The notes under the pieces: generated by a model
Database searches by the model: none
What the model saw: the letters and a program-made list of their open reading frames with translations, nothing else
Told to the model about the DNA's origin: nothing
Position numbers and translations under genes: made by a program
Assembly (NCBI RefSeq): GCF_012044895.1
Contig: NZ_CP050695.1
Coordinates: 774,501-838,500, forward strand
Reading direction: 5' to 3'
Length of the DNA stretch: 64,000 nucleotides
From: Aquisalimonas sp. 2447
Lineage (GTDB): Bacteria; Pseudomonadota; Gammaproteobacteria; Nitrococcales; Aquisalimonadaceae
Shown: positions 45,436 through 59,870 of the stretch, piece by piece
Layout: every line of letters starts with the position of its first letter
Numbering within the stretch: position 1 is the stretch's first letter

Positions 45436-45511
<76 letters not shown>

Positions 45512-45831: not shown

Positions 45832-46794
45832 TTACTCCGGACGCGGGAGTCGCGAGACCATGTCCGACATCTGGTCCAGGTCGGGCTGGACGTACTCCAT
45901 GGTCATCGACAGCGACGTGTGGCCCAGCAGCTGCTGCAGCGCACGCACGTTGGGGTTCGGCCGCCGCGCAATCTCCGTCGCGCAGGTATGCCGCAGCCGG
46001 TGCGGCGAGATCGGCTCATCCATGTAGTCCGACAACCGTCGGAAGAAGCCGTTGACCTGTTCCCTGGTCAGTTCGCCGGGCTTGTAGTGCGTGTTGCCGC
46101 GATGGAGGCCCAGGTCGAAGACCTGCCGTCGCCCGAAGCGTCGGTGCCCGACGCGTTCAGCCGTCGCTTGCCACAGGACCCGGAGTTCGGCGGCCAGCTC
46201 TGGGGCGAGCGGAACCTCCCATTCCCGTCGCGTCTTGCTCCCTTCCATGGTGAGCAGAATGGCCCCGCGCTCCCAGTCGATATCCTGCCAGCGCAGACTG
46301 ACCAGCTGGCGTCGCCGCATGCCGGTGTAGTACAGCGTCAGGATCACCAGGCGCCAGAACCAGCGAGGCTGTAACTTCGGCTGCTCATCGTCACTGAGGA
46401 CCGCGAGCACGCGCTTGAGCAGATCCTGGTTCACGGTCTTCTTGCGGCGATCACCCGGGGGTGCAGCCCCGACCCGGTCCAGCGGGTCATGGGTGACCCA
46501 GCCGAGCTGCAGGGCGTAGCGCCACAGCGCGCGGAACGTGCGCCGGTAAGTGTTCCACGTGGTCGGCGAGGCGCGATCCAGCACCTCGGAGCGCCAATGG
46601 AACAGGTGTTTGCGCTCGATGGCGCGCAATGGCAGATCCCCGAACTCCTTCTGGAAGCGGCGGATGATCTGCTCGTAGCTCTGAACGGTGGACGGATTCA
46701 GGAGGCGCTCGGTGCGATACACCTCCCAGATGTCCGACAAGGTGTGCCCGGTTCTCGGCGTGAGGCGAGAACCATTCATTCCGTCGACAGGCAT
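45832..46794 (-). CDS. Tyrosine recombinase/integrase
   Basis: 320 residues from the ATG at 46794. An N-terminal SAM-like core-binding domain (about residues 15-100) precedes the catalytic domain with Arg in TGMRRRQL, the HRLRHT box, His in LLGHTSL and the nucleophile Tyr in MTMEYVQ. Its size and layout are XerC/D-like rather than the 600-residue type of clc-like islands. It points toward tRNA-Thr and presumably integrates the element there. Confidence 0.93.
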   Translation of the reverse strand: MPVDGMNGSRLTPRTGHTLSDIWEVYRTERLLNPSTVQSYEQIIRRFQKEFGDLPLRAIERKHLFHWRSEVLDRASPTTWNTYRRTFRALWRYALQLGWVTHDPLDRVGAAPPGDRRKKTVNQDLLKRVLAVLSDDEQPKLQPRWFWRLVILTLYYTGMRRRQLVSLRWQDIDWERGAILLTMEGSKTRREWEVPLAPELAAELRVLWQATAERVGHRRFGRRQVFDLGLHRGNTHYKPGELTREQVNGFFRRLSDYMDEPISPHRLRHTCATEIARRPNPNVRALQQLLGHTSLSMTMEYVQPDLDQMSDMVSRLPRPE

Positions 46795-46882: not shown

Positions 46883-48712
46883 CTACTCCAGGGAGGGACG
46901 CAGGTATCGGTTCGGCTCGGGCCGCCAGGCGCCCAGAATGGGCTCCGGGTCGGGTACCAGGATCCCCTTCAGGTAACCGGTGTGCCGGTCCCGCTCAGCG
47001 ATGTAGTGGTGGATGTTGGTGTCGTTGCGCGGATTTTTCTGGTGAAGACGCATCTTCAGGAACCGCTTCTGGGCGTTGTTCCAGTCCCTGCCCGTGGCTT
47101 GGTAGAAGTCCCGGAATATTCCTGGGGACAGTAGGAGCAGGCCAGCGTCGACGACGTGAACGCGAGCATACGGTTCGTTGATGGCCAGGTGACCTTCGGC
47201 GAGTTCGTTGCGGAGCCAGGCCAGGAACGCTTCGCCATTGTCGTCCGGAAGTGAGTGTCCAGAGTCTGAATCGGCCGTGGGGGCCGAGAGCGTTTGTTCG
47301 CCTTTCGCAGTAGCAGCGTTATCGGAATGTGACGGGCAAGCGGGTTCGCGGTCGTTCTGGGGCGTATGCGATGCATGGCTGATGCTCTGCGTTTTGTGTT
47401 CGGTTCCTGACCGAGGTGTGACCCCCTCACACCCTCCGATATCGTTCACGACCTGTGACCCCGTCACACCTTCGGCCGCAGCGCTGGTTTCCGTGGCATG
47501 GCTCGTTGCCTCGGTCTTCGCGTCATCTGCCGTCGATCCAGTGTGCGAATGCACGCTGACTGTGCCCCTGAACTCATCAGGACGACATTCCGGGTCCGCC
47601 CAGACTCGTGATACCGGAAAGCGAATCAGGGTTAGGTCATGGCTCCAGTCATCGCCGGCCACGGTCGCCTTCCAGATGGCGCGCTCGCCATTCGGCACCA
47701 GGATCCCGTGCTCCTGCAGGACATCGAAGATGCGATCATTCGAGGAGGGCACGCCGGTGTGGCCCTCCTGCCGCAGCTGCTCGCGCAGTGCATCAGCCGT
47801 GCGTTTGGATACCAGCCAGAGGTCATCGCCGGTCAGCCAACCGGCAGCCCCGTTGCGATTCAGCGGGAGGTGCTCCTGGTCCAGAAGATGACGAAGCGCG
47901 GTGGCCAGCTTTTCGTGTAAGCCTTTCGCCGCTGTCGGCAGGCGGTCGGGAGACGTACCCCCGAGATTCCGCGCGACCGACTCCCGGTCGGCCTGCAGAA
48001 GCATCTGGCCCAGAGGACCGGCTTGTTCCATGTCACCGTGGATCGCGGCCGTCCACATCGCGAACAGGTCACCGTGTCGCGCGATCCACGTCAGACTGCA
48101 TGCCGGAAGCACCCAGTGTGCGACCAGTGGAGCGACGGGCTCGTGGAGCTTGTGTCTGCGGTCGCGACGGTACCGCACGGCGTACCAGGCCGCGTCCGGG
48201 CGATCCGGGATGGGCCCGTGCCAGGGCTCCCAGGGTCCCAGTCGTCGGCCGTCCTCTGCGTACAGGGTGATCACCTGATCGACCACCGGTTTGGCCATGT
48301 CGTGGACGAGTGCCGCGGCGAGTACGGCGTAGGTCCACACATCCGCCTCGTGAACGATGCGCTCCGGCGCCGCCCCGGGCGGCAAGACATGTCCGCGCCG
48401 AATCTGTAGTGCCTTCGCTGCCACTTCCAGACCATGGTCGAGCATGCCTCCCAGTCCCGCGTGATGATGGGCTTCCGAGGCCGGCATGAGCTGCACCCAG
48501 GCCGCATAGCGGGCGATGACTGCGTCCACGTAGCGCTTCTGGTGCTGGGCGGGCAACGCGAGAAGGTGGGTGATCTGCCGCAGCAGTGTGCGGCGATGCT
48601 CGGCGGCAAGCAGTGCGTCCGGGGACATGACGCGCACAAGGCCGGGCTTTGGTGGCCCGTGGTCCTGGTGGCCTTGGGTCCCGTCGGAACGCTGTCGCAG
48701 CCAGTTCAGCAT
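46883..48712 (-). CDS. MobH/TraI-type relaxase of a PFGI-1-class ICE
   Basis: 609 residues. Residues about 25-330 match the TraI_2 relaxase domain, with the histidine motif SEAHHHAGLGGMLDHG and the metal-binding LVHDMAKPVVD. After a low-complexity Ser/Thr-rich middle, the C-terminus (about 500-600) is the conserved TraI C-terminal domain ending in a DNA-binding-like segment. It should nick oriT and lead the transferred strand. Two TGTGA-N5-TCACA palindromes lie in frame in the variable middle (47417-47468), adding EGVT-type residues. No mating-pore genes are present here. Confidence 0.85.
   Translation of the reverse strand: MLNWLRQRSDGTQGHQDHGPPKPGLVRVMSPDALLAAEHRRTLLRQITHLLALPAQHQKRYVDAVIARYAAWVQLMPASEAHHHAGLGGMLDHGLEVAAKALQIRRGHVLPPGAAPERIVHEADVWTYAVLAAALVHDMAKPVVDQVITLYAEDGRRLGPWEPWHGPIPDRPDAAWYAVRYRRDRRHKLHEPVAPLVAHWVLPACSLTWIARHGDLFAMWTAAIHGDMEQAGPLGQMLLQADRESVARNLGGTSPDRLPTAAKGLHEKLATALRHLLDQEHLPLNRNGAAGWLTGDDLWLVSKRTADALREQLRQEGHTGVPSSNDRIFDVLQEHGILVPNGERAIWKATVAGDDWSHDLTLIRFPVSRVWADPECRPDEFRGTVSVHSHTGSTADDAKTEATSHATETSAAAEGVTGSQVVNDIGGCEGVTPRSGTEHKTQSISHASHTPQNDREPACPSHSDNAATAKGEQTLSAPTADSDSGHSLPDDNGEAFLAWLRNELAEGHLAINEPYARVHVVDAGLLLLSPGIFRDFYQATGRDWNNAQKRFLKMRLHQKNPRNDTNIHHYIAERDRHTGYLKGILVPDPEPILGAWRPEPNRYLRPSLE
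47417..47468. repeat. Two TGTGA-N5-TCACA palindromes inside the relaxase gene
   Basis: TGTGACCCCCTCACA at 47417-47431 and TGTGACCCCGTCACA at 47454-47468. On the opposite strand the spacers read GGGGG and CGGGG, identical to spacers in the intergenic tandem repeats 1.4 kb away, so they look like members of the same family. Confidence 0.85.
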
Positions 48713-49617: not shown

Positions 49618-49686
49618 TTTCCCCACATCCCGATCAACGTGGCATCCAGCATGGAGGCTGGGAACGTGCAACAGGAGTGCATTGCC

Positions 49687-50103
49687 ATGGCGAACCATTT
49701 CCACGGGCGCGGGAATCTGGGGACCGCGCCAATTCTGCGTCATACCGAGAACGGGAGCGGCGAGGCTGTTCCCGTTGCGAGTCTGCGCGTCTATTTCGAT
49801 CGGCGAAAGCCCGCTGGGGACGACTTCGAGGATCGTGGTGGTTTCTGGGCCAACGTCAGCCTGTGGGGCTATCGGGCGGAGGCGGCCGCACGATTGCTGC
49901 CCAAGGGCGCGCGTGTCGCCATCGAGGGCGAGCTGTTCCAGTCCGCCTGGGAGGATCGCGACACGGGCGAGCCCCGCAGTCAGCTCGAGGTCCGGGCAAC
50001 TCATGTGGATCTGGATCTGGGGCGTGTGGCATCGGTCCAGCTGCACCCTGCGGCGGAGCGTGGAGACACTCCCGAGACCGGGAAAGAGGAGTCGCAGGAA
50101 TGA
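49687..50103 (+). CDS. Single-stranded DNA-binding protein of ICE type
   Basis: 138 residues from the ATG at 49687. An OB-fold SSB-like core is seen (GRGNLGTAPILRH, VASLRVYFDRR, GGFWANVSLWGYRAEAAARLLPKGARVAIEGEL). The tail lacks the DFDDDIPF-type end of chromosomal SSB. Such proteins protect transferred single strands of integrative elements. Its stop overlaps the next start (ATGA). Confidence 0.8.
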   Translation: MANHFHGRGNLGTAPILRHTENGSGEAVPVASLRVYFDRRKPAGDDFEDRGGFWANVSLWGYRAEAAARLLPKGARVAIEGELFQSAWEDRDTGEPRSQLEVRATHVDLDLGRVASVQLHPAAERGDTPETGKEESQE

Positions 50104-51039: not shown

Positions 51040-51211
51040 CATCGCCTGCCTGTGAGCGCATCACAGGTCCCGCGAAGCCCCTTCGGATCGGGAAGAGGGG
51101 CGCCGGTACAGCCGGTCGGTCCATTGATCCAACCTCTACACCCTGCCGGGGAAAGCATTTCCCTGGCAGGGAGAGCGCTTTCTCCGGCTTTTTCGTGAAG
51201 GAGAAAGTGCC
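51040..51211 (+). promoter_or_regulatory. Structured 5' leader A, upstream of the DUF3577-like gene
   Basis: Core 51040-51123 is shared with leaders B and C. It contains the hairpin CCTGTGA-GCGCA-TCACAGG (51049-51067), the stem GCCCC/GGGGC (51077-51081 with 51097-51101) around GGATCGGGAAGA, and a CCGG/CCGG stem. Two further hairpins follow: 51141-51171 (CCCTGCC...GGCAGGG, long and perfect bar one wobble) and 51175-51185 with 51200-51210, an 11-bp stem that buries the Shine-Dalgarno GGAG next to the ATG at 51212. This looks like a cis-acting RNA that controls translation. Confidence 0.75.
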
Positions 51212-51619
51212 ATGTCCGAGAAGTCCTACTTCGATCTCCACATCACCGGTCTCGGGTACGTGAATCGGATCCGGGAGGTTCGGCCCAAACGCGGTGAGCT
51301 GTTTCTCGCGTGCGATGTCGTCGCGATTCACGGCGATGCCGAGGAGCCCGAGCGCACACGGTTCGACTGCCGTGTTGCCGGTCAGGAAGCTCAACGCCTG
51401 GTCGAAGCCATGCCGCGGCACCTGGAGGCCGATCGCAAAGTGCTCATCGGCTTCAAGCTCGGTGACCTCTACGCGGAGAGTTTCACCTACCAGGAAGGCG
51501 AGAAGGCCGGTGATATCGGCATTTCGCTGAAGGCAAGGCTCCTGAAGATCAGCTGGGTGCGGATCGACGGTGAGAAGGTGTATCCGCCGATCGAAGCCCG
51601 CAACGAGGAGACCGCCTGA
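51212..51619 (+). CDS. DUF3577-like ICE protein
   Basis: 135 residues. The start YFDLHITGLGYVNRIREV and the middle SB-like segment (GELFLACDVVAIHG, FDCRVAGQEAQRLV) match the DUF3577/STY4534 type found on integrative conjugative elements next to ssb and topoisomerase genes. A single-strand or nucleic-acid-binding fold is possible, but no activity is established. Its ribosome-binding site lies in the last hairpin of leader A. Confidence 0.75.
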   Translation: MSEKSYFDLHITGLGYVNRIREVRPKRGELFLACDVVAIHGDAEEPERTRFDCRVAGQEAQRLVEAMPRHLEADRKVLIGFKLGDLYAESFTYQEGEKAGDIGISLKARLLKISWVRIDGEKVYPPIEARNEETA

Positions 51620-51649
51620 GTGTTCTTTAACAATGCGGTTCATCACGAC

Positions 51650-51879
51650 GGAAGATTCCGGGGCCTCGTGCCCCGGCGTCTTCCCGAGCCCGTGCGTGCG
51701 CGGGCTGGAGGAAGACGATTCCATCGCCCGCCTGGCGCGTAGTCAGGCCCGAGTAAACCCTTTCGGATCGGGAAGAGGGGTGCCGGCGCCGCCGGTCGAT
51801 CCACACGTTCGACGTTAGCCCACCGGGGACAGCTTCCCCGGTGGGGAGGTCTGTCCCCGCCATTCAGAGGAGACAGGCC
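51650..51879 (+). promoter_or_regulatory. Structured 5' leader B, upstream of ardC
   Basis: Order of elements: an outer stem CGTCTTCC (51677-51684) with GGAAGACG (51710-51717) enclosing GCCCG/CGGGC; the shared core 51722-51803 with hairpin GCCTGGC-GCGTA-GTCAGGC (51730-51748) and stem ACCCT/GGGGT (51757-51761 with 51777-51781). Two terminal hairpins follow: 51819-51829 with 51835-51845 (11 bp), and GGTCTGTC (51848-51855) with GACAGGCC (51872-51879), which adjoins the Shine-Dalgarno AGAGGAG. Compared with leader A, paired bases change together. Confidence 0.78.
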
Positions 51880-52836
51880 ATGACCAAGGACATGGACAAG
51901 CGCGATCTCTACCAGGAGGTCACCGACAAGATCATCGCCGCCCTGGAAGAGGGCACCGTGCCCTGGGTGAAACCCTGGGACAGTCGACACGCTTCCGTGA
52001 TGGCGGGGTATCCGTGCAATGCCCTGACGGGGCGTCCGTACCACGGGGTCAACGTCCCACTGTTGTGGCTGGAGCAGGCGGTGCGCGGATTCACGACCCA
52101 TCGCTGGATGACCTTCCGGCAGGCCAGGGAGGTCGGCGGCCACGTGCGTCGGGGCGAGAAGGGCACGCTGGTGACCTTCTTCAAGCAGCTCCGGAAGCAG
52201 GCCACCGACGAGGCCGGAAACCCCCGGTACGACGAGGACGGGGTGCCTGTCGAGCGGACGATTCCGCTGCTCAAGGGGTTCACCGTTTTCAACGTCGACC
52301 AGATCGAGGACCTCCCGGATGAATGCCGGGAGCCCGAGGTCACGGAGGAGGAGTTCCCGGAGCCGGTGGAGGCCGCCGAGTCTGTCGCTGCCGCCTCCGG
52401 TGCCGACATCCGGCATGGTGGTCCTCAGGCGTACTACGCCCCCGCCTCTGACCACGTGCAGATGCCGCCGGCGGCGGCGTTCCACTCCCGCGAGGGGTAC
52501 TACGGCACGCTGCTGCACGAGCTCACGCACTGGACCGGGCACCGCTCCCGGCTGGCCCGGGACGGCATTGTCCGCTTCGAGGGCTTCGGCAGCGCCTCGT
52601 ACGCGTTCGAGGAGCTGGTCGCGGAACTCGGTGGTGCATTCCTGTGCGCCGAGACCGGGATTCACGGCGATCTCCGTCACGAGGGGTATATCGCCTCCTG
52701 GCTGGAGGTGCTTCGAGGCGACAAGCGGGCGATCTTCCGTGCCTCGACGCAGGCGCGACGGAGCACGGAGTACCTGATGGCCCGGGTGTGTCCGGCAGCC
52801 TCACCGGCGACGGCCGGCCAGGAGGCTGTTGCGTAG
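51880..52836 (+). CDS. ArdC-like antirestriction protein with zincin domain
   Basis: 318 residues from the ATG at 51880. The N-terminal ssDNA-binding DUF1738-type domain (YQEVTDKIIAALEEGTVPWVKPW, LTGRPYHGVNVPLLWL) is followed by a metallopeptidase-like domain with HELTHWTGH (HExxH) and the downstream Glu in FEELVAELGGAFLC. ArdC proteins protect incoming single-stranded element DNA from host restriction. A 40-residue acidic insert (PEVTEEEFPEPVEA) lies between the domains. Expression is probably governed by leader B. Confidence 0.9.
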   Translation: MTKDMDKRDLYQEVTDKIIAALEEGTVPWVKPWDSRHASVMAGYPCNALTGRPYHGVNVPLLWLEQAVRGFTTHRWMTFRQAREVGGHVRRGEKGTLVTFFKQLRKQATDEAGNPRYDEDGVPVERTIPLLKGFTVFNVDQIEDLPDECREPEVTEEEFPEPVEAAESVAAASGADIRHGGPQAYYAPASDHVQMPPAAAFHSREGYYGTLLHELTHWTGHRSRLARDGIVRFEGFGSASYAFEELVAELGGAFLCAETGIHGDLRHEGYIASWLEVLRGDKRAIFRASTQARRSTEYLMARVCPAASPATAGQEAVA

Positions 52837-52989
52837 GTCGCCCCGGTCCCCGTCGAGGCGGGACTTCTCCGGTCGACGCGAGGAGTCCCGCTTTTCTCCG
52901 AACCGCGTCAACGGGCCTGCTGGCCCCGGTTGTCTTCGTACCGCCACGGACGGCCCGCCGGCCGTCTCGTCAAAGGGAGGTTGAATGCC

Positions 52990-53454
52990 ATGGACGAAAC
53001 CATCCGACAGCGTCGCGATGGCTGCTGGGAAGCAACCCTGCCCAGCGGCAGGGTGTGGAGCTGTTCCAGCCGCGAGGACCTGGAAACCCTTCTGCAAGCG
53101 CAGCAGCGGAGCCAGGAGGCGAATCGACGGTTCCTGGAGGCCTGGAAGCGGGCAGTCGTACTCATCGGCCCCGAGTACTTCCAAGTGGACTGTGAGTCGG
53201 TGGATGACGCCACCGACAAGTGGGATCTGCAACCGGACGTCATGGCGCTGACCGAGCGCGTCCGCAGTCCCATCAGTCCCGGTGAGAAGACCTTCATCGG
53301 CGCCTGCTGCAGTTTCTACAACCCGGAGACGGGGCAGATCCTGCTCGGCTTTGCCGGTGACGACCGGATGAACCTCGGCGATATCGCCCGAACCCTCGAC
53401 GAGGAGCGCAAAGCCATCGTCGCCGAGCTGTTTCTCAACGACCGCGGATGGTGA
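52990..53454 (+). CDS. ICE-associated protein, unknown
   Basis: 154 residues. The ATG at 52990 follows AGGGAGG by 10 nt; another ATG at 52985 is out of frame. It begins MDETIRQRRDGCWEATLPSG and contains SPGEKTFIGACCSFYNPETG near the C-terminus. The predicted fold is mixed alpha/beta. No family recognised. The 150-bp gap before it contains GC-rich stems (for example GACGGCC/GGCCGTC) but not the leader core seen at the neighbouring genes. Confidence 0.6.
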   Translation: MDETIRQRRDGCWEATLPSGRVWSCSSREDLETLLQAQQRSQEANRRFLEAWKRAVVLIGPEYFQVDCESVDDATDKWDLQPDVMALTERVRSPISPGEKTFIGACCSFYNPETGQILLGFAGDDRMNLGDIARTLDEERKAIVAELFLNDRGW

Positions 53455-53483
53455 CCGCAACGGTTCGGCGCCATCACGCCACG

Positions 53484-53695
53484 ACCCCGGGGCCGCTGGT
53501 CCCGGGCGTCTTCCCCGAGGCGCTGGCCGGGGCCGTCGGCTGGGGGAAGACGTCTCCATCGCGTGCCTGGAGCGTATCCAGGCCCCGGTGAAGCCCCTTT
53601 GGATCGGGAAGAGGGGCGCCGCCTGCGGGTGGTCGGTCCAGAAGTCATTCACCCCGGCGGGTCGGACGCCCCGCTGGGGCCGGTCTGTCCCGTGT
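53484..53695 (+). promoter_or_regulatory. Structured 5' leader C, cut at its 3' end
   Basis: The outer stem CGTCTTCCCC (53507-53516) pairs with GGGGAAGACG (53543-53552). The shared core 53557-53640 holds hairpin GCCTGGA-GCGTA-TCCAGGC (53565-53583) and stem GCCCC/GGGGC (53593-53597 with 53613-53617). A terminal hairpin at 53652-53679 follows. The left arm of the last hairpin, GGTCTGTCC (53682-53690), matches leader B exactly, but its partner and ribosome site are missing because IS110-type sequence begins at about 53695. The gene once controlled by it is displaced or lost. Confidence 0.75.
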
Positions 53696-53953
53696 ACTTC
53701 TGCAGGAGATTGCGCATCAACGCTGTTGGTGCGCTGTCGCGCAGCAAACATGGTGCAAGATAGGCGGGCGCACGGAGAGCAGAGGCCAGACGCCGCACTG
53801 GTGTGCATGCACCCGCGTAGGAGAGTGGCCCGCACGGCATCGGCGTGGAGTCGTTGAAGGCACGGCACTGGCCGTGACCTCGTATGAGAGAGTGAGCCCT
53901 ACCGCCGCCGTGTCTCCCCGTACGCCCTTGTGATCATCATGTGAGGAACGGAC
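53696..53953 (+). ncRNA. Candidate IS110 left end with bridge-RNA region
   Basis: About 258 bp of non-coding DNA between the break in leader C and the transposase start. IS110-subgroup elements have a long left-end non-coding segment that encodes the bridge RNA guiding target choice. The position and length fit, and short stems such as GCGCATCAACGCTGTTGGTGCGC occur. The exact boundaries and loops cannot be fixed by eye. Confidence 0.4.
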
Positions 53954-55287
53954 ATGGCAGGCAAGAGGCAGAAGCGGCGGTTGGAGGTGGTGCATCCGGA
54001 TTGTGCCGGTATCGATGTCGGGGGTCACGAGCATTGGGTGGCGGTGGATCCCGGGCGTTGCGAGGTCTCGGTGCGGTGTTTCAGCGGTTTCACCGACGAT
54101 CTGCAGGCGCTGGCCGACTGGCTGGAGTCGCTGGGGATCACCCAGGTGGCGATGGAGGCGACGGGGTGTACTGGATTGCGCCCTTTGAGGTGCTTGATGC
54201 ACGGGGCTTTGAGGTTCTGCTGGTCAACTCCCGGGCCACGCGGCAGGTCTCGGGGCGCAAGTCCGATGTGCTCGACTGTCAGTGGATCTGGCAGTTGATG
54301 AGCCACGGTTTGTTGAGCGGTGCCTTTCGCCCGGGTGATGCGGTGTGCACGCTGCGTGCGTTCGTGCGCCAGCGCAGTCGCCGGATCCAGGCCCAGTCGT
54401 GGTGTCTGAACCACATGCACAAGGCGCTGGCGCAGATGAACGTGCATCTGGGCCATGTCGTCAGCGACCTCAAGGGCAAGACGGCGATGCGCATCCTGCG
54501 GGCGATTGTCGCCGGTGAGCGGGATCCGTGGCAGCTCGCCACGCTACGCGATCGGCGGCTGCGCGCCGACGAGGCGACGGTCGCGCGCAGCCTGCATGGC
54601 AACTGGCGCGTCGAGCATCTCTTTGCCCTCGAGCAGGCACTGGCGCACTTTGATTTTCTCGAGCAGCAGATCGGCGCCTGTGATCGGGCGATCCTCTCGG
54701 CACTCGAGGCACTGCCCGTGCGTGCCTGTGCCCCGACTGAACTCGCCACCCCCTCGCGCAGCGCCCACCGCAGCGCGGCCGAGCAGCGCCGGCTCCAACA
54801 GGCACTCCTCCAGGTCATGGGGGTCGATCTCAGCGCCATCCCATCGCTGGGTGTCGACACCGTGCTGGTGATCGCCGGAGAAATCGGCCCCGACCTCTCG
54901 CGCTTTCCCTCCCAGGCGCACTTCTGCTCCTGGCTCGGGCTCGCGCCACCGACCCGGATCTCGGGTGGCAAAGCCCTCAGCGGGCCGGGGACGAAGGTCA
55001 ACAACATCGCCGCCCAGGCACTCCGCCAAGCCGCCTCGAACGCGCGATCGAGTCGCAGCTTCATCGGCGCCGCCCATCGCGCAAGACTGACACGCATGGA
55101 CACCGCCAAAGCGATCAAGGCCACCGCTCACCAGCTCGCCCGGCTGATCTACGCCATGCTCACCCGTGGCCAGCCCTACGTCGAGAAAGGCATCGAGGCC
55201 TTCGAGGCCACACGCCATGATCGCCAACTGCGGGCACTCCAGCGCAAGGCCCGCAAACTCGGCCTCGATCTGGTGCCAGCAGCATGA
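53954..55287 (+). pseudogene. IS110 transposase (DEDD), broken by one-base deletion
   Basis: The reading starts MAGKRQKRRLEVVHPDCAGIDVGG (first catalytic Asp) and continues to MEATG (Glu), then must change frame at 54161-54170 to continue with VYWIAPFEVLDARGF. One G is missing from a run of four, where five would restore the frame. The remainder is intact: RKSDVLDCQW carries further acidic residues, and the C-terminal Transposase_20 domain (IPSLGVDTVLVIAGEIG, FCSWLGLAP) has the serine region. The rest of the gene is undamaged, so this is either a recent mutation or a sequencing error. Confidence 0.85.
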
Positions 55288-56297: not shown

Positions 56298-58100
56298 TCA
56301 AGCCCGCTCTGCATTCAGGAACGACCGCCAGTCCCCGAAGTCCGTGATATCACGGGCCCGCTCCAGGTCCGCCGTCTCGCAGATGAAACCGGTGACGAAT
56401 TGACCATCCGCCAAGCGGACCTTTCCGAGCCCGAGTGGCGACGGAATGTTCGCGAGGAACGAGCCGACGTGCTGTGTCGGAACGTCCCAGACTTCAACAC
56501 CGATGTGCTCGCCCCGGGCTTTCACGCGTGCTAGACCGGGACGCTCGGGTGGTCCGCCTGGCAGTGCGTAGAGCCTGTATTCGGGGGCCGTATAGGTGCG
56601 GTTCACCAGGCGAGCCCCCCGCTCCTGAAGCTGGTGGTTCAGTGGGAGGCCTTCCATGTGCGCACCACAAACGGCAATTGGGACCGAGTGAGCGTTCGTA
56701 GTTGCGACAGAGGGTTGCTCAGGGAGGGGTTGTCCCGTTGTCGTCAGGGGTAATCCTCCCTGACGGTGGAAGCGGTCGGCTATCGCCAAAAGATCTTCAT
56801 CATGGAAGGCTGGGGCGAATAGCGTGCAACCGAACGGTAAACCGTGACCGTTGAACCCTGCGGGCACGGCGACCGCGCTCAAATCCAGGAGATTCATGAA
56901 GTTCGTGTAGTGGCCGAGCTGGTTGTTCAGCGCGATGGGGTCGTTATTCACCGCGTCGATGGTGTGAATGGTGCCGGCGGTCGGGGTTGCCACGAGGTCG
57001 ATGTTGCCCCATGTCATTTCGGTTTCACGGCGCAGTTCCTGCAGCCGGTATTCGGCGGCGAATGCGTCGGTGGCCAGAGGCCGGCGACCACGCTCGATGA
57101 TCTCCCGGGTGACGGGGAACAATGCGTCAGGCTGTTCCTCGATGAATTCCCGGATCGCGGTGAAGCGCTCGGCGATCCACGGGCCCTGGTACAAAAGGCC
57201 CGCTGCCTCAAGGAACGGTGAGAAATCAATGCGGACGCGCGTGCCACCCATGGCCTCCAGCCGCGCGACGGCATCCCGGAAGAGTTCGGCCGCGTTGTCG
57301 TCGCCGAAGAATTCGAGCTGTTCATCCGCGGGTACGCCGAAGCGGAATTCCTCCGTGGGGATGCGGCCGGGGCCGAGGCGTGGTGGCTGATCGGGGCGGG
57401 CGTAAGGGTCGGCGTCGTCGAATGTGCTGACCACATTGAGCACCGTGTGCGCGTCCGTCGCGGTTGCCGCGAAGATGCAGACACAGTCCAGCGTCTTGCA
57501 CGCCGGCACAACACCCCGGTTGCTCAGCAATCCGCGCGTCGGTTTGACGCCGACAATATTGTTGAAGGCCGCCGGAATGCGCCCTGAGCCCGCGGTGTCG
57601 GTACCGAGGCTGAAGCTCACCAGGTTGAGCGCCGTGGCAACGGCTGACCCTGAGCTGGATCCCCCTGCGATGAATCGGTCGTCGAAAGCGTTGGCACAGG
57701 CGCCGAACGGTGAGCGTGTCCCCACCAGCCCTGTTGCGAACTGATCGAGGTTGGTTTTCCCCACCGGCACGGCGCCGGCCTGGATCAACTGCTGGACGAC
57801 GAAGGCCGATTCGCCAGGTGTGTACGCGTACTCGGGGCACCCGGCGGTGGTCGGGATCCCGGCGAGATCAATGTTGTCCTTCAGCGCGAATGGAATTCCG
57901 TATAGGGGGAGCCCCGTCGGCGAGGCATCGTCCAGCGGGGCCAGGAATTCCTCGAGCTCCTCGTCGTCCAGGATGTGAATCCAGATATTCCGAGAGGCTT
58001 CGCCGCGAATGCGGCGCATCAGGTCGCGGTAGAATTCTCGTGGACTCTGGCGCCCCTCTGCGAAGTCGGAATGCAGTTCAGCGATCGTCATGTTGTCCAT
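56298..58100 (-). CDS. atzF: Allophanate hydrolase (AtzF-type)
   Basis: 600 residues. The N-terminal amidase-signature domain has the Lys in ALKDNIDLAG, the cis-Ser in GGSSSGSAVA and the nucleophile Ser in DTAGSGRIPAAF. The C-terminal domain (residues about 470-600; VCGAHMEGLPLNHQL, RTYTAPEYRLYALPG) is the one specific to allophanate hydrolases. It converts allophanate to ammonium and CO2. No urea carboxylase gene is present, so allophanate presumably comes from another compound. Last gene of the minus-strand operon; 84 bp separate it from the nitrilase gene. Confidence 0.92.
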   Translation of the reverse strand: MDNMTIAELHSDFAEGRQSPREFYRDLMRRIRGEASRNIWIHILDDEELEEFLAPLDDASPTGLPLYGIPFALKDNIDLAGIPTTAGCPEYAYTPGESAFVVQQLIQAGAVPVGKTNLDQFATGLVGTRSPFGACANAFDDRFIAGGSSSGSAVATALNLVSFSLGTDTAGSGRIPAAFNNIVGVKPTRGLLSNRGVVPACKTLDCVCIFAATATDAHTVLNVVSTFDDADPYARPDQPPRLGPGRIPTEEFRFGVPADEQLEFFGDDNAAELFRDAVARLEAMGGTRVRIDFSPFLEAAGLLYQGPWIAERFTAIREFIEEQPDALFPVTREIIERGRRPLATDAFAAEYRLQELRRETEMTWGNIDLVATPTAGTIHTIDAVNNDPIALNNQLGHYTNFMNLLDLSAVAVPAGFNGHGLPFGCTLFAPAFHDEDLLAIADRFHRQGGLPLTTTGQPLPEQPSVATTNAHSVPIAVCGAHMEGLPLNHQLQERGARLVNRTYTAPEYRLYALPGGPPERPGLARVKARGEHIGVEVWDVPTQHVGSFLANIPSPLGLGKVRLADGQFVTGFICETADLERARDITDFGDWRSFLNAERA

Positions 58101-58184
58101 GGGGTGTCATTACAGCCGTTGAGACGTTCTGGGAATCGGGAACGGGGGGCCTCCCGGCGGAGGGCCCCGCTCCCGATCGAGGGA

Positions 58185-59870
58185 TCAGGCGCTTTTCACG
58201 AGTTCCGAGTACGTGTTTACGAACCGGTTCGCGAGCATGTCGACGCCCGGGATCATCATCTTCTGTCGTGCCAGGGCGAGGTTCATGAAGCCGGGCATGA
58301 CAGCGCCGTGGCGTGTTTGCCGTGGTGCGACGCGTTCGACGTTCCAGTCCGGCAGTCCAGTCGGCTGAATCACAAAGGATCCACCGGGATAGGGCGTATC
58401 AGTGCGGTTGGCCGCTACCAGGAAAACCCGGTTGTCCTCCGCCTTCGGTGCGGTGAGCAGTGCTCTGTCCCTGGCGTCCCGCCAGCCGGCCGCCCAGACG
58501 ATGGCGTCGGCGCCTTTCAGCGCGAGAGCGCGCGCTGACTCGGGAAACCGCCCGTCGTATCCGAGCAGTACACCGAAGCGGCCCCAGTCCGTTTCGAAGA
58601 CCGGTAGCGTATCCCCGGGGTCACACCAGCCGCGGCATTCCGGCTCGACATGTGCCTGCCGGTATTGTCCCTGGACGGTGCCGTCAGGGCCGATCACGAA
58701 CGCCGTGGAGAAGAGTTTCTCGCCGTCGCGTTCGATCAACGGTGCGACGACCGTGCAGTTCCACCGCGAGCACACGCCGGCGAGATGGTGGATGACGGCA
58801 TCCGTGCGTTCAGCGGCCTCTCTGGCGGCGCGTTCGTCAGGCAGCCAGTGCTCGGCGTTGGCAAACTGTGGCAGGGCAATCAGCTTCACGCCCAGGCGTG
58901 CGGTGTGCTCGACCATGTCCAGGGCGGCGTCGAGGCTGCCCTCCGCAGTAGTCATGTGTGCCTGAACCGCTGCCGTCTTGGAGGTGGCTTCGGAGGGGAT
59001 GATCGGCTGGGTCAGAATCTGGCCGGCGGGCGTCTCCTCGAGGGGCTTGGCGAGGATCCCGTAGAGGTCCGGCCGCCGGTCCTGGAAGCGGTCACCACCT
59101 CCTTCCCAACGCTTGTTGCGGGCGGCCATCGGGTCCACGTCCGCGCAGGCCACGCCGTGGTCGTCCCAGTCCACGTAGGCGTGCACGTGGCCCTCCGGGT
59201 CGACAATCATGCTCCCGCCCGGGTAGTAGATGCTTCTCTCGACGCCGGCCTTGGTACCGGCGACGATCCAGACGCCATTCTCCCATGCGCGTGTCCGGGT
59301 CCAGAGATCGGCCTGATCCATGGTGAAGAAGTTCGCCATGTCCACGACCACGTCCACGTCCTGAAGGGCCAGTGTCCGGGCAATCTCGGGGATCCGGCCA
59401 TCGAAGCAGATCAACAGGCCCAGGCGCCCAAGCTCGGTGTCGACCACCGGACAGCCGTTCTCGCCCCAGGCGAACCAGTTCTGGTCGTGAGTAGCGAGGA
59501 ACTGCTTCTGGTAGTGCAGGATCAGGGAACCGGACGGATCAAAGAGCAGACCGCTGTTGAAGACTTCGCCGTTGGCGCCGAGTTCGGTAAAGCCGCTGGC
59601 GATATGAAGCCCGTGTTGGCGGGCGAGCTTCTTCATGGTGGTTGCGAACGGTCCGTCCAGCGGTTCGGCCAGCTCACGGGCGTGCTCGGGTGAGTCGAAC
59701 AGGTACCCGGTGTTCATGCACTCGGGGAACACCACCAGTTTCGCCCCGCGCCTGGCGGCCTCACGGGTGTAGTGCTCAAGCAGACGAATGTTTTCGTTGA
59801 CGTCGCCGAGGCTTGCAAGGGTCTGCACCACGGCGGCACGGAACGGTGCGGGATGAGTCTGTGTCGTCAT
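58185..59870 (-). CDS. Double nitrilase-superfamily protein, second domain degenerate
   Basis: 561 residues, two carbon-nitrogen hydrolase domains in tandem. Domain 1 (about 8-275) has a full triad: Glu in VVFPECMN, Lys in LHYQKQF and Cys in LLICFDGRIPE. Domain 2 (about 290-540) keeps the fold but its counterparts are IALPQFAN, YRQAHVEP and LLGYDGRFPE, so Glu, Lys and Cys are all replaced. Domain 2 is probably structural or regulatory. With the allophanate hydrolase and transporter it may hydrolyse an amide or carbamoyl bond of the imported compound. Confidence 0.88.
   Translation of the reverse strand: MTTQTHPAPFRAAVVQTLASLGDVNENIRLLEHYTREAARRGAKLVVFPECMNTGYLFDSPEHARELAEPLDGPFATTMKKLARQHGLHIASGFTELGANGEVFNSGLLFDPSGSLILHYQKQFLATHDQNWFAWGENGCPVVDTELGRLGLLICFDGRIPEIARTLALQDVDVVVDMANFFTMDQADLWTRTRAWENGVWIVAGTKAGVERSIYYPGGSMIVDPEGHVHAYVDWDDHGVACADVDPMAARNKRWEGGGDRFQDRRPDLYGILAKPLEETPAGQILTQPIIPSEATSKTAAVQAHMTTAEGSLDAALDMVEHTARLGVKLIALPQFANAEHWLPDERAAREAAERTDAVIHHLAGVCSRWNCTVVAPLIERDGEKLFSTAFVIGPDGTVQGQYRQAHVEPECRGWCDPGDTLPVFETDWGRFGVLLGYDGRFPESARALALKGADAIVWAAGWRDARDRALLTAPKAEDNRVFLVAANRTDTPYPGGSFVIQPTGLPDWNVERVAPRQTRHGAVMPGFMNLALARQKMMIPGVDMLANRFVNTYSELVKSA

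Follow-up and report, generated by a model that had tools for sequence, protein, structure and literature searches.

The stretch of the Aquisalimonas sp. 2447 genome analyzed here (64,000 nucleotides of contig NZ_CP050695.1, positions 774,501 to 838,500; hereafter the window) contains one end of an integrative and conjugative element (ICE), in which a structured motif recurs in front of mobile-element genes. The motif folds into three hairpins (P1, P2 and P3) and a pseudoknot, and by its sequence it looks like a compact single-unit variant of a known orphan class, radC RNA (RF01754). We lean towards reading it as a translational leader, in which a shared recognition domain, the pseudoknot, would be combined with a platform over the Shine-Dalgarno (SD) segment, so that the genes behind the copies would be co-controlled.

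Three copies, A, B and C, begin with CATCGC at positions 51040, 51722 and 53557 and share GGATCGGGAAGAGGGG without a difference, as an earlier reading made from the letters alone (the sequence-only reading) had described; the compensatory stem changes it had noted among the three copies were also found as claimed. The tails read GGTCGGTCCA in copies A and C and GGTCGATCCA in copy B. Searching the 3.97-Mb genome with the 16-mer GGATCGGGAAGAGGGG returned these three exact matches, one place with a single mismatch (C1:841903-841918) and six more places with two mismatches. The single-mismatch place belongs to a fourth copy, D (C1:841887-841945), located 3.4 kb beyond the window and 0.5 kb upstream of a RAQPRD-family ICE gene, the first in a run of secretion genes.

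Conserved fold and pseudoknot

Folding of single copies was weak evidence, with z-scores as RNA of -1.48 (A), -2.73 (B, with its outer hairpin) and -3.43 (C, with its outer hairpin) and as DNA of -3.12 (A), -1.33 (B) and -2.55 (C), while covariation among homologues was strong evidence. A covariance model (R1) was built from P2 and P3 of 12 copies and gave 74 matches at E 0.02 in 23 selected sequences, 62 of them distinct. Fifteen further matches, judged by inspection to be chance, had been dropped before these counts (one each in L084-L092, L101, L108-L110, L122 and L135). Across the 62 distinct rows, 96.9% of the 966 cells of P2, P3 and the pseudoknot were paired, both-sided changes occurred in 12 of the 16 pairs, and none of 500 shuffles reached the covariation score, which bears out the conserved covarying structure claimed from the window. 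Since related rows easily beat shuffles, the slid controls weigh more: structures shifted by 1 to 3 columns had 30.6 to 54.0% of their cells paired.

The loop and tail letters that the sequence-only reading listed as conserved are present; what it overlooked is that GGATCG in the second loop and CGRTCC 3' of the third hairpin are the two strands of a six-pair pseudoknot. This pairing was left out of R1, yet 364 of its 366 cells paired (17.3 to 66.4% in slid versions), three pairs showed both-sided changes, and one of the pairs was seen as A-U, C-G, G-C and U-A. The P1 hairpin, misplaced by the MAFFT alignment, was recovered in 59 of the 62 copies by a permissive search that had no chance control.

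G-T cells outnumbered A-C ones throughout, by 10:1 in the pseudoknot, 21:5 in P2, 59:1 in P3 and 8:4 in P1. One constant pair held 54 of the 59 G-T cells of P3, and the total without that pair was 44:11. The excess of G-T favors the mRNA strand, and RNA rather than single-stranded DNA, as the form in which the fold is kept, although wobble cells are not independent and R1 may favor G-U in P2 (not in the pseudoknot).

In copy A, P1 (CCTGTGA/TCACAGG, readable from the letters) spans 51049-51067 and is followed by P2 (51077-51101, with arms at 51077-51083 and 51095-51101), whose loop holds the first pseudoknot strand (GGATCG, 51085-51090), by P3 (51102-51116) and by the second strand (CGGTCC, 51117-51122). 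The corresponding elements of copy B are P1 at 51730-51748 and, within 51757-51802, P2 (51757-51763/51775-51781), P3 (51782-51796) and the pseudoknot GGATCG/CGATCC (51765-51770/51797-51802). Copy C has P1 at 53565-53583 and, within 53593-53639, P2 (53593-53599/53611-53617), P3 (53618-53633) and GGATCG/CGGTCC (53601-53606/53634-53639). All lie on the plus strand. The outer stem CGTCTTCC/GGAAGACG that the sequence-only reading added to copies B and C exists, but as a separate upstream hairpin (P0; 51677-51717 before copy B, 53508-53552 before copy C) rather than as part of the motif.

Distant leaders of DUF3577 genes kept this layout with other letters, such as GGGCTG/CAGCCC (L019), GGACCG/CGGTCC (L016) and ATCTCCT/AGGAGAT (L026). 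A structure descriptor at its stricter setting returned no linker-bearing unit in L187-L191 or in L149 and L151-L153, so these divergent leaders rest on reading by eye. Over 40 kb of the window, the descriptor gave a background of four forward, two reverse and one shuffled match (crude shuffle).

Alternative pairings over the ribosome-binding site

The core found by the sequence-only reading stood, and two further hairpins that reach the ribosome-binding site had been missed. These hairpins, P4 and P5, lie between the motif and the gene start, P5 covering the SD segment. In leader A, P4 occupies 51141-51171 and P5 51175-51210, directly before the STY4534-family/DUF3577 gene (51212-51619); in leader B they occupy 51819-51845 and 51848-51879, and the start of the ArdC-type antirestriction gene (51880-52836) was set behind P5. 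Both genes and these hairpins are on the plus strand. The P4-P5 region was more stable than any of 200 shuffles in each leader (z -6.83 in A, -5.57 in B). Among the 62 copies, 48 had an SD-preceded start of an open reading frame (ORF) of at least 50 codons 58 to 115 nt downstream, a count without chance control. Copy C had no leader-type gene start downstream, and the ORF of an IS110-type transposase begins at 53941.

The 5' arm of P5, called gamma (about 51175-51185 in leader A), fitted the SD segment of its own leader better than those of permuted leaders (-17.30 against -13.24 kcal/mol, 0 of 20000 permutations; fixed windows, 40 leaders), while a control pairing of the upstream arm with the SD segment showed no such fit in the same windows and leaders (-9.37 against -9.86). 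Gamma likewise fitted its own upstream arm, alpha, the 5' arm of P4 (about 51148-51157 in leader A), at -21.58 against -17.55 when permuted (0 of 20000; 31 leaders). L104:5629 was excluded from the leader tests and eight leaders were excluded by hand from the gamma:alpha test. The two pairings, each supported by its permutation test, are mutually exclusive, and on this basis a translational switch between P5 and the alpha pairing is plausible.

Several observations weigh against a switch of this kind. The leaders are related, so the significance of the permutations is overstated, and eight of them had been removed by hand from the gamma:alpha test. The own partner was the single best one in 5 of 40 rows for gamma:SD and in 7 of 31 for gamma:alpha. 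In the predicted ensemble the SD core is only partly closed, with a median of 0.25 unpaired and values under 0.2 in 11 of 47 leaders. The DUF3577 leaders L013 and L023 have P4 and an SD-pairing hairpin (P5), with no single-unit pseudoknot seen just upstream. Finally, the last copies before the secretion operon showed no SD platform.

Homologues, arrays and associated genes

DUF3577, the family of the gene behind copy A, was present in 20 of 369 genomes of the class. At E 0.001, R1 matched 8 of these 369 genomes, 8 of 398 genomes of the phylum and 8 of 59 relatives, of which six, one and six, respectively, were convincing (the own genome being counted each time); those not counted as convincing included G082 and G156 in the class and G072 and G778 among the relatives. 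From 34 further stretches, five were used (L117, L119, L120, L128 and L133), four repeated genomes G223 and G208 (L131, L144, L114 and L116), three gave no convincing match (L115, L122 and L135) and the other 22 were left out. Named carriers were Thioalkalivibrio strains and metagenome-assembled genomes. A search of plasmids with the leader of copy A gave no match, R1 hit none of six named plasmids, and one viral-contig stretch that matched the motif pattern was judged to be chance.

Convincing genomes carried 2 to 9 copies, all on the same strand within one contig. Arrays comprised seven copies over 9 kb in G125, nine on two contigs in G223, six in G084, five in G208, four in G747, five in G771 and seven in L104 (from G769). 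Four arrays, those of copy D, L102, L104 and L107, close with a copy in front of the secretion operon's RAQPRD gene; the last copies L009:4388-4446, L102:11125-11184, L104:6453-6510 and L107:10164-10223 stand within about 0.6 kb of it. For the copies of terminal type in L075, L078 and L081, the fetched stretch gave no match to RAQPRD.

The claim that the structure precedes ICE genes, one of them for antirestriction, was borne out: 14 of 20 proteins encoded behind copies had a Pfam family (six had none), and the families were DUF3577, ArdC, RadC-like, DUF932, DUF3275, DUF4942, C-5 methylase and SNF2/ResIII helicase.

Relationship to radC RNA and other described classes

Rfam gave no family at the copies at its curated cut-offs; relaxing the limit to E 10 brought five low matches, all unrelated. 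Among described classes radC RNA comes closest. Like the window family, it has a P1 hairpin, a C-rich linker, a P2 with a loop of 10 to 12 nt, a P3 abutting P2 and a pseudoknot from the P2 loop to the tail, and a test for the layout of P1, P2, abutting P3 and pseudoknot found it in both. Both occur in several copies per element and stand before STY4534/DUF3577 and other DNA-handling genes. A radC RNA scoring 131.7 bits stood directly before DUF3577 in G262. Copies over the cut-off numbered four in pY89 of P. aeruginosa, four in a plasmid of Enterobacter ludwigii and three in a plasmid of Stutzerimonas zhaodongensis, and one copy in each of these plasmids lay 78 to 113 nt 5' of the STY4534 gene. 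In sibling elements radC RNA takes the position that the motif has here in front of the STY4534/DUF3577 gene. The loops form a graded series (CGGATCGGGAA, CGGATCGCGAA, AGGATCGTGCAA and TGGATCTTCAA). Kinship is argued from layout, loop series, linker and gene position and not from a model score: up to E 10 the radC model hit none of the copies (its best match in the host genome, G000, lay elsewhere with 18.1 bits, against an Rfam cut-off of 40 bits), and the radC and R1 models did not match each other's members. radC RNA is associated with a wider list of DNA-handling genes.

The main difference is a second 3' unit of radC RNA (GTTCGC..GCGAAC type) with its own pseudoknot, whereas the window leaders run on to P4 and P5 after CGRTCC. 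In 25 of 26 radC sequences (one was left out), the P2 loop fitted the tail behind P3 at a score of at least 4.5 in 20, and the second unit had its own pseudoknot in all 25, neither result being reached in 5000 permutations. With these two pairings, radC RNA reads as a tandem pair of the unit that occurs singly here. The structure annotated in the Rfam model shows neither of the two covarying radC pseudoknots (loci L011, L154, L174-L184, L185 and L192-L201), and a passage of PMC7657543 groups radC with families that have no covarying pairs in their database structures.

The sequence-only reading had likened the gene set to that of STAXI (RF01728) and had not named radC RNA, the nearer relative. 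The resemblance extends to the pseudoknot topology, since in an E. coli example (L146, 132.2 bits with RF01728) the same unit order, X1-Y1-X2-hairpin-Y2, can be read by eye from the Rfam alignment. Membership was rejected: the copies scored under the cut-off of 40.5 bits and their consensus letters differ, STAXI having two or three tandem units with CCAAUG and CUGAGAG and the window motif a single unit with other letters. R1 did not match L146, and the STAXI model exceeded its cut-off in none of the 20 DUF3577 genomes. The descriptor recovered one of the three Rfam STAXI units in L146, where none of 200 crude shuffles gave as many matches. An extra unit of the same topology, with letters unlike those of the STAXI units, was observed where the Rfam STAXI match has its 3' border (L146:2643 onward).

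LOOT (RF03000) was also rejected. It gave one sub-threshold match (34 bits, cut-off 46.4) in one homologue, where it ran antisense to the P0-P1 region and hence on the strand opposite to the motif; this match was absent at E 0.5 in L078, which includes the same place. Another match of 20 bits was near DUF3577 in G314, and no match over the cut-off was found in 350 genomes of the class.

In the passages concerned, PMC2864571 lists both radC RNA and STAXI in 2010, the latter near genes for single-stranded DNA-binding protein (SSB), topoisomerase and antirestriction and with a conjectured role, the former as a table row. The open-licence literature searched yielded no paper on radC RNA by name, though the identifier RF01754 occurs there in two papers, and the listings from combined searches of it held nothing on such a leader.

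Proposed mechanism and alternative explanations

In the translational reading, each copy would belong to the 5' leader of an mRNA from the ICE, with P1 and the P2-P3 pseudoknot as the probable recognition domain for a common trigger and P4/P5 as the platform. Pairing of gamma with the SD segment would keep translation off and pairing of gamma with alpha would turn it on. Binding at the pseudoknot, by a trigger that may be ICE-encoded or linked to conjugation, would shift this balance, and genes with the same leader would consequently be made together (STY4534/DUF3577, ArdC, RadC-like, DUF932, DUF3275, a methylase and a helicase). A mobile element could in this way switch a gene set through a common leader, and ICEs would have a regulon, acting at the RNA level, that takes in anti-restriction, DNA-processing and perhaps transfer genes. 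More tentatively, and with the odds rather against the whole, a single unit (linker CC..AA, then X1-Y1-X2-hairpin-Y2) may both build three orphan mobile-element RNAs, occurring singly here, doubled in radC RNA and tripled in STAXI, and sense a conjugation or excision signal for a regulon of anti-defence, DNA-processing and transfer genes. With its readable ribosome-binding platform and as many as nine copies in one genome, the single-unit form lends itself to testing: two mutually exclusive helices and a single common trigger are predicted, and the RNA is a short one for binding work.

The main rival, because terminal copies precede secretion genes, is action on transcription, the pseudoknot serving as an antiterminator or polymerase-binding leader that carries transcription past P0 into the secretion operon, with the SD hairpins as a separate layer. 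Four arrays end before RAQPRD in copies that lack the SD platform, and hairpins of at least 7 pairs stood 5' of 37 of 61 copies (no chance control), promoter-like sites 5' of 9 of 61 (one in one crude shuffle) and both 5' of two. We regard it as improbable, given that the P0 tails are poor in T, that the window scan called none of the P0 hairpins a terminator, that the SD platform covaries from leader to leader and that the fetched stretches of L075, L078 and L081 gave no RAQPRD match. Somewhat less probable again is a role in mRNA stability or processing, with P0 and pseudoknot delimiting single-gene transcripts cut out of a long one; the order hairpin, leader, gene, hairpin recurs through the arrays, but the matched alpha, gamma and SD arms would be left unexplained.

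Of the two forms suggested by the sequence-only reading, RNA or single-stranded DNA, the former is favored (44 G-T against 11 A-C cells; SD segment within the fold) and the latter disfavored. Conjugative elements do carry single-strand promoters (Frpo/ssi) and leading-region anti-defence genes, as described in part of PMC11541004, and the same part describes structured repeats 5' of anti-defence genes, which resemble the arrangement here. With this precedent, a gene set including SSB and ArdC and the folding of copy A as DNA (z -3.12), a Frpo-like action on the transferred strand has some appeal. We nevertheless consider it unlikely: the wobble bias (10:1 in the pseudoknot) points to the mRNA strand and away from conservation of the fold on the template strand, the SD segment belongs to the fold, oriT was not located, and a double-strand consensus scan of the window detected no promoter-like site (-35/-10) inside the copies, in contrast to Frpo, nor any before A, B or C. 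A protein site in double-stranded DNA, for which letters rather than fold would be conserved, has hardly any probability left; CGGATCGGG is strongly conserved among near relatives, but P2, P3 and the pseudoknot show both-sided changes, and loop and tail co-vary in distant DUF3577 leaders (by eye, as in L019).

Gene context in the window

The ICE end in the window is marked by a tRNA-Thr gene (45436-45511), followed on the minus strand by a tyrosine integrase (45832-46794) and a MobH relaxase of the PFGI-1 class (46883-48712). SSB (49639-50103) is encoded on the plus strand, as are the leaders that come after it. The IS110-type transposase ORF begins 0.3 kb past copy C (53941-55287) and is followed on the minus strand by genes for an allophanate-hydrolase-like amidase and a carbon-nitrogen hydrolase (56298-59870), a stretch that probably represents cargo lying between C and D.

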